Assembly: GCF_001187915.1 (NCBI RefSeq)
Contig: NZ_LGIU01000038.1
Coordinates: 1 to 64,000 of the forward strand
Direction: 5' to 3'
Length of the DNA: 64,000 bases
DNA from: Arthrobacter sp. RIT-PI-e
GTDB lineage: Bacteria > Actinomycetota > Actinomycetes > Actinomycetales > Micrococcaceae
Positions 44,792 to 58,746 of this stretch are shown in pieces. The first letter of the stretch is position 1. Each line of letters begins with the position of its first letter. Position numbers and translations under genes: made by a program. Below the pieces are notes generated by a model. It was not told the origin of the DNA and did no database searches. It saw only the letters and a list, made by a program, of their open reading frames with translations.

Positions 44792-45382
44792 GTGACCGGT
44801 CGAACAGTCGTCAGCGAGCAGGAGCTCGGCGAACACGCCCTCGGCACCGAGGTGGTGGTGCTCCTGGCGGAGGACGGTACCGCCCTGGGCACGCACGACA
44901 AGGCGACGGTCCACACGTCCGACACGCCCCTGCACCTCGCCTTCTCCACGCACGTGTTCGACGACGCCGGGCGGATCCTCGTGACGCGCCGCGCGCTGGA
45001 CAAGAAGGCGTGGCCCGGGGTCTGGACGAACTCCTTCTGCGGACACCCCGCCCCCGGGGAGGCGTTCGAGGACGCCGTCCGGCGCCGGGCTGCACGGGAA
45101 CTCGGGTTCACCGTCACGGACATCACCCCGGCGCTGCCCGATTTCCGGTACCGGGCCGTGGACGCCTCCGGGATCGTGGAGAACGAGATCTGCCCGGTGT
45201 ACACGGCCCGCGCCACCAGCACGGTGAGTGCCGCACCGGACGAGGTGATGGACCACCGGTGGGTGGACGTGGCGGAGCTGGTCCGCGCGGTCGCCGCCAC
45301 CCCCTGGGCCTTCAGCCCCTGGCTGACCCTCCAGCTTCCCCTGCTCTACCCCGCCGGTCCCGACGCACCAAGCCCGGCATGA
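44792..45382 (+). CDS. idi: Isopentenyl-diphosphate delta-isomerase, type I
   Basis: Interconverts IPP and DMAPP, feeding prenyl and carotenoid synthesis. 196 residues of Nudix fold: LHLAFSTHVFDDAGRILVTR, active Cys in WTNSFCGHPAPGEAFEDAV, RRRAARELGF and active Glu in IVENEICPVYTAR. The GTG at 44792 follows GGAGGA by 9 nt; a frame-open ATG at 44693 would overlap crtE and has no ribosome site. Divergent from crtE, which it supplies. A short hairpin (CGGCAT/ATGCCG, 45375–45390) covers the stop. Confidence 0.93.
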   Translation: MTGRTVVSEQELGEHALGTEVVVLLAEDGTALGTHDKATVHTSDTPLHLAFSTHVFDDAGRILVTRRALDKKAWPGVWTNSFCGHPAPGEAFEDAVRRRAARELGFTVTDITPALPDFRYRAVDASGIVENEICPVYTARATSTVSAAPDEVMDHRWVDVAELVRAVAATPWAFSPWLTLQLPLLYPAGPDAPSPA

Positions 45383-45442
45383 GCATGCCGAGCACGCAGC
45401 ACACGGACGCTTCCCGGTCCATGCCGCATCGGCCGTCCGCCC

Positions 45443-45955
45443 GGCACCGGTGACGCCAGGTCGACGACGACCGAGAAGAGTTCCGCCACGGCACTCCCCG
45501 GGGTCTCCCCCGCCGTCATCCTGGACAAGGCGTGCCTGTCCGGTCTCAGCGCGGTGATCGACGCCGCCCGGCTCGTCCGCAGGGGTGAGGCCTCCGTGGC
45601 GGGCGGTCAGGAGTCGGTGACCGACGGCCGGTAGCGCAGGGGCGGGAGCGCGGTGCTGGGCGCGGACGAGGGCGGCCGCCCCGCGACCCCCATGGACCCC
45701 CGGGCGAGGCTCGGCCCGTCCTCCCCCGGACGGCGCGATCACGGCGGGGAACTCAGCCCCCTGTCCGACGGGGCGGCCGCTCCCGTGGTGACCAGGCGGG
45801 CACGCGCCGAGGAGCTGGGCTCATGGGCCGTGGCGGTGCCGGGTTCCCCGGGCCAGGTGGCAGGACCGGACGACTCCCTGCACTCCGCCCCGGAACCGGC
45901 CCGGCGCGGTACGGGGAGATCGGCCGTGCACTGTGCGGTGGCGGAATCAGGGTGA
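45443..45955 (+). pseudogene. Relic of a thiolase (acetyl-CoA acyltransferase) gene
   Basis: One frame carries two thiolase pieces interrupted by a TAG at 45632–45634. The first (45443–45631) reads PGVSPAVILDKACLSGLSAV then IDAARLVRRGEASVAGGQES, matching the nucleophile-Cys region (xxNKxCLSGLxA...VVAGGxESM). The second (45653–45955) holds DEGGRP, LSDGAAAPVVTRRARAEELG and GQVAGPDDSLHS, matching the region 'ISDGAAAVVV..RAEELG..G.VAGPD.S'. The middle (~120 residues), the N-terminus and the C-terminal His/Cys domain are missing, and there is no start. A decayed gene rather than a functional one. Apart from it, 45383–46061 holds nothing recognisable. Confidence 0.75.
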
Positions 45956-46061
45956 GGCCCTGCTGCTCTGGTGCCAGGCGGCCCCGAGCACGGTCGGGGC
46001 ATGCCGTGTGCCCGCGGTACCGCCCTGGAGGGGTGCGGCGCCGTTCCCGTCCCCGGACATG

Positions 46062-46101
46062 ACAGGAGCCCTGCTTCCACGAGGGGAAGCAGGGCTCCTG
46101 T
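46062..46101 (-). terminator. Terminator of rplJL
   Basis: Perfect 17-bp inverted repeat (46062–46078 / 46085–46101) with a 6-nt loop, 41 nt after the rplL stop. The longest perfect stem apart from the fusA one in this window. Confidence 0.9.
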
Positions 46102-46142: not shown

Positions 46143-46520
46143 TTACTTGAGGGTGACGGTGGCTCCGGCGGCCTCGAGGGTCTCCTTGGCCTTCTCCGCA
46201 GCTTCCTTGGTGGCGCCTTCGAGGACGGCCTTGGGGGCGCTGTCGACGACGTCCTTGGCTTCCTTGAGGCCCAGCGAGGTGAGCGCGCGGACTTCCTTGA
46301 TCACTGCGATCTTCTTGTCACCGGCAGCCTCGAGGATGACGTCGAACTCGGTCTGCTCCTCGGCCTCGGCCTCGGCTCCGCCACCGGCGGGGCCTGCGAC
46401 TGCAACTGCGGCAGCGGTGACGTCGAAGGTCTCCTCGAACAACTTCACGAAGTCCGAGAGTTCGATGATGGACAGTTCCTTGAAAGCCTCGATGAGCTCT
46501 TCGTTGGTGAGCTTCGCCAT
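46143..46520 (-). CDS. rplL: 50S ribosomal protein L7/L12
   Basis: Stalk protein that recruits translational GTPases. 125 residues: N-terminal dimer domain [20 protein letters not shown], Ala/Gly/Glu hinge ([20 protein letters not shown]) and C-terminal domain [25 protein letters not shown]. The ATG at 46520 is chosen over an upstream ATG at 46553 because it starts the conserved protein. Transcript ends at the terminator; rpoB does not follow. Confidence 0.98.
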
Positions 46521-57294: not shown

Positions 57295-58746
57295 CTACTG
57301 CGCCGGACCGAGCCTGGCCAGCAGCTTCTGCATGGACATCATGGCGCCCCCGAGCACCGCCGGCAGGCCACCCCCAGGGTGCACGGACGCCCCCACGCGC
57401 CACAGCCAGGGTCGCAGCGGGTCCGAGAACCCCGGGACGTGCAGCGGGCCGCTCAGGAACACCGGGTGCACCGCCCCGTACAACGCGCCACCAGCCGAAC
57501 CGCGCTCGCCGAAGTGGCCGGGGTCCAGGATCCGGTGGTCCTCGAAGTACCCCTGCAGGGGTTCGGTGAGGCCGAGGACCTTCGTGGTGCGTTCCAGTTC
57601 ACGCACCACGAAGGGATCGTCGAGTGAGTACCGTTTGCCGTTGGCCGGCGCGGTGAGCAGCAGGGCGAGGGTGTCGGCGCTGTTCGGGTACACCCCGTCC
57701 GCCGGGTAGTAGTTGGCGAACGCCATGGTCTGGTACGGCTCCTCCCCCGCCTCCAGGGCACGGTAGAGCTCCGCCGGGTCGTCCGGCATGATCACGCCGT
57801 GCCGGGCCGTCCCAGCGGGGAGCGGACGATCGAGCACCGCGTAGATCCCGACGGCGGAGCAGGAGAGCTTGCGGGGGCTACGCGGCGCCCGCCCGGTCAG
57901 CAGGCCGCCCAGCCGGTGGGCGTCCAGGCCGCTGACCACCGCGTCCGCCGGGTAGGTGCCGACGGCGGTGGTGACCCGGCGCCGGCCGATCCGCTCCGCG
58001 GGTTCCCCGGTGTGGATCTCCACCCCGGCGTCGACCGCGAGTCGCTCGAGTGCCAGCACCAGTTCGTAGATGCCGCCCGCCGGGATCCAGACGCCGTCCT
58101 CCGCCATGACGGCCGGCATGCTGGCGTACAGGGCCGGTGTGCGGGTGGGGCTCACCCCGGCGTTGAGGGTGTGGATCGCGATGACCTCCCGGAGGCCCTC
58201 CGGCATCCAGTCGAGGCTGTCCAGGTAGCTGCGGGTGGTGAGCCGCGGTCCGTACAGGCCCCCCAGCTTGAGCAGTGCGGGGCGCACCGTGGGATCCAGT
58301 GGTGCCGTGGTGAGCAGGCGTGACACGTCGCCACCCAGGACGCCGTGCTCGGCGGCGAAGCGCGCCCACGCCGCGTGCCAGGGGTGGCCCTCGGGGACCG
58401 GCAGCGGGCACTCCTCGCCGCGGTAGTAGTACCTGCCCACCTCCGGCAGGCGCTGCAGGGGCAGTGCGGCGACCTCCGCGGCGGGCGCTGTGCCACCCGT
58501 TCCGCCCGCATGCGTCCCGTCCGGGACGACGTCGTCCAGGCGCCGCAGCAGCTCCTGCCACACCCCCGGGAAGGTGAACAGCGACGGCCCGGTGTCCACG
58601 CGCTGCCCCGCAAGATCGAGGCGACGGCTCTTGCCGCCCACGTACTCCGAGGCCTCGAGCAGGGTGACCCGGTGACCGGCCCGTCCCAGCAGCGCGGCGG
58701 CGGTGAGGCCGCCGATTCCGCCGCCGACCACGACGACGCGGCTCAT
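57295..58746 (-). CDS. crtD: CrtD-like carotenoid desaturase (CrtI family)
   Basis: 483 residues of the FAD-dependent phytoene-desaturase superfamily: VVVVGGGIGGLTAAALLGRA, LEASEYVGGKSRRLDLAGQR, VDTGPSLFTFPGVWQELLRR and a C-terminal GASVHPGGGLPAVLGGAMMS. It differs clearly from the crtI product at 41–42.7 kb. With the elongase upstream (ATGA overlap at 58743–58746) and cruF opposite, it fits the 3,4-desaturase CrtD of bacterioruberin synthesis. Another late oxidoreductase step is possible. Confidence 0.8.
   Translation of the reverse strand: MSRVVVVGGGIGGLTAAALLGRAGHRVTLLEASEYVGGKSRRLDLAGQRVDTGPSLFTFPGVWQELLRRLDDVVPDGTHAGGTGGTAPAAEVAALPLQRLPEVGRYYYRGEECPLPVPEGHPWHAAWARFAAEHGVLGGDVSRLLTTAPLDPTVRPALLKLGGLYGPRLTTRSYLDSLDWMPEGLREVIAIHTLNAGVSPTRTPALYASMPAVMAEDGVWIPAGGIYELVLALERLAVDAGVEIHTGEPAERIGRRRVTTAVGTYPADAVVSGLDAHRLGGLLTGRAPRSPRKLSCSAVGIYAVLDRPLPAGTARHGVIMPDDPAELYRALEAGEEPYQTMAFANYYPADGVYPNSADTLALLLTAPANGKRYSLDDPFVVRELERTTKVLGLTEPLQGYFEDHRILDPGHFGERGSAGGALYGAVHPVFLSGPLHVPGFSDPLRPWLWRVGASVHPGGGLPAVLGGAMMSMQKLLARLGPAQ

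Follow-up and report, generated by a model that had tools for sequence, protein, structure and literature searches.

The 64,000-nucleotide stretch of Arthrobacter sp. RIT-PI-e DNA analysed here (the window), which lies on contig C10 of a 3.46 Mb draft genome (104 contigs, 99.5% complete), carries at positions 45490–45975 what is close to certainly a pseudogene, the decayed remnant of a thiolase gene. On balance, we think it probable that the native acetoacetate module to which this gene belonged was displaced by an acquired scoA-scoB-thiolase operon found elsewhere in the same genome, in one event affecting one genome. We stop short of a firmer wording because function and timing are reconstructed, and because the acquired thiolase may itself be impaired.

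Upstream of the remnant, idi (44792–45382, plus strand), encoding a type I isopentenyl-diphosphate isomerase, is intact and conserved in relatives (NF002995 matches its 229-aa frame at E 4.6e-78; the GTG start at 44792 was picked by eye). The zone that follows (45383–45489, plus strand) has lost thiolase codons 1–80 together with some upstream DNA, measuring 107 bp as compared with approximately 330 bp in the relative's locus L069. About 163 of 399 codons survive, in three colinear pieces on the plus strand, as established by alignment to the genes of 17 relatives and blastn comparison with 16 idi-rplL intervals. Piece A (45490–45631) corresponds to codons ~81–128 and contains the nucleophile motif CLSGL; it matches PF00108 (Thiolase_N, E 4e-7) and TIGR01930 (E 1.7e-7), is at most 79% identical to relatives by blastn and, by protein comparison, has lost about two codons in frame. 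An in-frame TAG (45632–45634, plus strand) lies near the junction of A with B, where some 85 codons are deleted. Piece B (45635–45901), covering codons ~214–303, yields no Pfam match; it matches TIGR01930 (E 8.9e-6) and the solved structure of a 3-ketoacyl-CoA thiolase (PDB chain 2iik_A, E 6e-7), and is ~69–75% identical to relatives by blastn. Deletions of two bases and of one base put approximately 12 of its codons outside the ancestral frame. Piece C (45902–45975), recognized by alignment, holds codons 375–399 out of frame; its blastn matches are mostly 71–79% identical, with no match to the relative's locus L096. Small indels disrupt the frame within B and C, and codons 1–80, ~129–213 and ~304–374 are wholly lost, the ends being approximate. 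Altogether the gene has suffered three large deletions, one stop and several frameshifts, and about 60% of its codons are gone. The interval between idi and rplL has shrunk to 760 bp, against ~1.4 kb in the relatives compared. On the other side is rplL (46143–46520, minus strand), which encodes ribosomal protein L7/L12 and is the thiolase gene's older neighbour. Between it and the remnant lies an inverted repeat with perfect 17-bp arms and a 6-nt loop (46062–46101, assigned to no strand), which probably terminates transcription of the rplL operon.

The initial annotation, which had called this a decayed thiolase gene, is borne out. Neither A nor B lacks significant thiolase similarity; both resemble the family beyond chance and are colinear in profile order (TIGR01930 positions 68–115, then 204–290). 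The frame described at 45443–45955 reads as it was given, TAG included. It had been presented as a single frame, and the open reading stands, but not the ancestral continuity, because of the shifted codons of piece B and those missing from piece A. Likewise, the N-terminus and middle are indeed missing, but the C-terminus is not wholly so, as codons 375–399 persist off-frame in piece C, which runs past position 45955. In their family matches, A and B resemble biosynthetic-type acetyl-CoA C-acetyltransferases (TIGR01930, with PRK08235 as the best model), while the window copy differs from such enzymes in its frameshifts and in its missing codons. It falls well short of a full-length thiolase frame of ~390–400 aa. 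The CxS nucleophile motif is retained as CLSGL, the NEAF and GHP motifs both fall inside the third deletion (codons ~304–374), and the DNA of the C-terminal CxG motif region persists out of frame.

Purifying selection on the remnant has been lost. At 236 sites that are invariant among relatives the remnant departs at 37, namely 18 of 104 first, 17 of 116 second and 2 of 16 third codon positions; junction columns, which MAFFT had misplaced, were excluded from this count. Control relatives (8 of the 17, each left out in turn) depart at 0–3 sites in all, and the intact genes of the window at 11/297 (idi), 17/587 (crtE), 5/253 (crtB, 168 codons) and 5/529 (rplA). As the changes in the remnant are spread evenly over codon positions and lie far above those in relatives and in intact window genes, the gene is dead, and we regard it as an ordinary pseudogene.

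In relatives, the interval between idi and rplL still holds an intact orthologue, the check that the initial annotation had proposed. With the protein of locus L069 (6926–8122, from genome G032) as query, 34 of 37 other genomes of the genus, G032 included, have an intact, nearly full-length match of 79–100%. The L069 protein itself matches TIGR01930 over its full length and above the cut-off, while its best model, PRK08235, is matched below its cut-off. In a 35th genome, G023, the orthologue is frameshifted into two overlapping frames with a TGA (L087, 6443–7640), and is perhaps a second decaying copy, or else a sequencing error. The two genomes without a match are G020, which is 68% complete, and G021, which has an assembly gap: the contigs carrying idi and rplL break off 145 and 91 bases past those genes, where the thiolase would sit. 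The thiolase adjoins rplL in all 34 genus genomes that show it in the inspected stretches, and, by its coordinates, in G018 also. In 23 of those 34, idi is directly beside the thiolase; it is ~1.5 kb away in four (G015, G023, G026 and G028) and outside the inspected stretch in seven (G012, G013, G030, G031, G035, G036 and G037). In G030 the contig ends ~0.5 kb beyond the thiolase, with idi on another contig. G018 has no idi match in its genome, yet has the thiolase beside rplL, making eight genus genomes with rplL-linked thiolase and no adjacent idi.

Outside the genus, 25 loci among the 30 best thiolase matches have rplL within a 1.5-kb flank in 19 cases, and idi in none. Twenty further, less similar loci, hand-chosen from the weaker thiolase matches, have rplL in four, scoA within the same 8–9-kb stretch in nine, neither in seven and idi in none; scoA is thus absent near the thiolase in 11 of these 20. 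Conversely, among the best 80 of 547 idi loci, 15 have the orthologous thiolase within the flank, with record titles naming Arthrobacter in 14 and Vibrio cholerae in one. The latter record (WNZI01000028.1, L119, 1–8015), titled Vibrio cholerae strain 35D, has Arthrobacter-type crtE-idi-thiolase-rplL genes with 86% idi identity, and its title looks like a mislabel or contamination. Since outside the genus the thiolase is often beside rplL and, in the loci inspected, never beside idi, and since eight genus genomes lack an adjacent idi, it was idi and the crt genes that moved next to the thiolase, and not the reverse. By gene order, then, the thiolase is native to the ribosomal neighbourhood, and idi/crt is the newcomer. 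A literature search on Arthrobacter thiolase together with rplL found nothing. Separately, a distant (29%) crtI-like stretch lies outside the crt cluster of the window, at 57943–58719 on the minus strand.

These neighbourhoods bear on the suggestion, made in the initial annotation, that the remnant is left over from a once larger isoprenoid (mevalonate) locus beside idi. Its attraction is the adjacency of thiolase and idi in the window and in the 23 genus genomes, plus the four with a ~1.5 kb gap. However, a search of 38 genus genomes, that of the window among them, found no HMG-CoA reductase (the control was detected in 5 of 14 reference genomes), the window's genome carries DXR, an enzyme of the MEP pathway, and none of the 25 or of the 20 loci outside the genus has idi next to the thiolase. 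On these three grounds we reject a mevalonate locus, which is very improbable. Equally hard to credit is that the remnant is a short functional protein or a regulatory RNA. A 100-codon GTG frame is open at 45653–45955, yet part of it lies outside the ancestral frame, and the even distribution of changes over codon positions at sites fixed in relatives speaks against this reading; a functional short protein is rejected on this basis. As the genome is a draft in many contigs and the analysis covered its assembled sequence, an artefact in place of true decay might be considered. This is scarcely believable, because a single contig holds three large deletions and scattered substitutions between an intact idi and an intact rplL, and an assembly artefact as the sole cause is rejected.

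The best account of the gene places it in acetoacetate breakdown. In five relatives (L268–L272), an operon near dxr has the order mccB-mccA-ivd-scoA-scoB-maoC-hpcH; in G020 this order is conserved through scoB, with neither maoC nor hpcH matched ahead of dxr. Here mcc and ivd are presumptive names, and no curated equivalog cut-off was passed. We take this to be a leucine-breakdown operon with a CitE/RipC-like lyase, whose protein scores below curated cut-offs. A search for an HMG-CoA lyase of the PF00682 type gave one match in the genome, inside a long open frame, which we take to be 2-isopropylmalate synthase; the CitE/RipC-like gene of the operon is the better lyase candidate. Rv2498c, a homologous kind of enzyme, yields acetyl-CoA and acetoacetate by cleaving (R)-HMG-CoA (PMC6689899). 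The relatives' operon resembles leucine breakdown of the Rv2498c type (PMC6689899) in its carboxylase, acyl-CoA dehydrogenase, MaoC and CitE/RipC-like genes, and differs in that its CitE/RipC-like protein, a putative lyase, falls under the curated cut-offs; the main text of that paper makes no mention of scoA or of a thiolase. Most likely, the native rplL-linked thiolase of relatives would split acetoacetyl-CoA made from acetoacetate by ScoAB, for instance in the closing steps of leucine breakdown, an assignment that draws on established biochemistry.

In the window's genome, this operon has been altered. The scoA locus of the leucine operon was examined in 20 genus genomes. Nineteen carry ivd-scoA-scoB consecutively; the twentieth, G002, has scoA-scoB-maoC-hpcH in a stretch containing 760 N. 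This count leaves aside L229, L230, L231 and L275, which hold a different scoAB pair, and L227 and L276 of the window's genome, and enters G007, G019 and G020, each seen twice, only once. The window's genome has mccB-mccA-ivd-maoC-hpcH near dxr, with the ivd and maoC matches 74 bp apart and no match to scoAB between them. A relative's scoA used as query finds a single match in this genome, 56% identical, on another contig, C26, while a scoA match is present in every other genome of the genus. The native scoA-scoB is therefore cleanly gone from the leucine operon.

The C26 match belongs to a scoA-scoB-thiolase operon (L109, 9518–12173, that is G000:C26:9518-12173, minus strand) with a divergent IclR gene. 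Nearby are genes for a LysR regulator, a CitMHS symporter, a presumably AtuA-like protein and a CocE/NonD hydrolase (L109, 3667–14444). Eight genomes had their flanks searched and seven of these (all except G017) were inspected at the corresponding site; none of the seven has a match there to the operon or to the regulator, symporter, AtuA-like and hydrolase genes around it. The flanking genes are 0.5–6.9 kb apart in these relatives, versus 10.9 kb in the window's genome, and G014 matches one small gene of the region (e13779) at 58%. In G136, a genome of another genus, the order thiolase-scoB-scoA-IclR recurs with matches of 68, 83, 75 and 62%, respectively, in a 19-kb stretch with no symporter and no AtuA-like gene. 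The C26 thiolase, like the native one, is acetyl-CoA C-acetyltransferase-like, both failing the PRK08235 cut-off and passing that of TIGR01930. In a maximum-likelihood tree of 69 rows, it groups with a thiolase of G014 (G014_C17) and four rows of other genera (support 99/95) and stands apart from the native ones. The program lists it among the long branches, and the native rows do not form one clean clade, two rows of another genus standing among them.

The C26 thiolase is thus of foreign phylogenetic origin in a genome whose native copies are lost, the thiolase decayed and scoAB absent. This is alike to xenologous gene displacement, in which a homologue of different phylogenetic place is present where the native copy is dead, and differs from it in that three genes from two native loci stand against one operon, that one dead copy is still visible, and that the replacement is putative. 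The lineage would have gained a full scoA-scoB-thiolase operon elsewhere in its genome. Its own scoA-scoB would have been lost from the leucine operon by a clean deletion, and its own thiolase would have decayed through its large deletions, stop and frameshifts. Probably the acquired operon took over the function, making the old copies unnecessary; we infer both the takeover and the order of events. That the partner genes vanished together and that a matching foreign operon is present is also what suggests a role in acetoacetate or leucine breakdown. The nine hand-chosen family loci with scoA near the thiolase count in favour of displacement, and the 11 without it count against. Also against displacement, G014 has a related second thiolase and retains its native one, which shows that having a second copy is not enough to bring about loss.

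The main competitor to displacement is plain gene loss, in which a dispensable native thiolase decayed by chance, with other thiolases covering for it, and the missing scoAB and the C26 operon have nothing to do with it. The genome still has four full-length thiolases, and the three other than that on C26, at 34–39% identity, could cover the step. The C26 thiolase (L109, 9518–10708, minus strand), moreover, lacks the base cysteine: it has Gly (GGC) at the CxG motif, at a position that is Cys in every one of the 68 other thiolases in the alignment. This cysteine is the catalytic base in the Zoogloea thiolase, as described in PMC3406046, and in the passages of PMC7137286 and PMC4595758 on Cys378, and in those of PMC3406046, no Gly at this position is reported in an active thiolase. 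Elsewhere the protein looks constrained: it differs at 2 of 104 invariant positions, as intact members do (two very divergent rows dropped, 67 of 69 kept), and the other change is E166D. The Gly-for-Cys change could make the acquired thiolase a poor or dead enzyme, and is either a base-call error or the mark of a working gene that recently lost its base residue. What argues against plain loss is that both likely partner genes are lost and a matching three-gene operon is present in the sole genome with an extensively decayed copy, which would be a pointed coincidence. Plain loss is, on this evidence, rather unlikely. Of a tentative nature, too, is the fuller version of displacement, in which the three-gene module of two native loci was displaced by the acquired operon, whose thiolase then lost its base Cys; acetoacetyl-CoA may then meet a different fate or a changed chemistry.

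Common as pseudogenes are, if displacement is the right explanation, the likely cause of the formation of this one can be read from the same genome. The Gly-for-Cys change poses a clear enzymology question. For the family as a whole, many genera of which carry the rplL-linked thiolase, the role of this gene points to acetoacetate and leucine breakdown and not to isoprenoids, a proposal that is testable.
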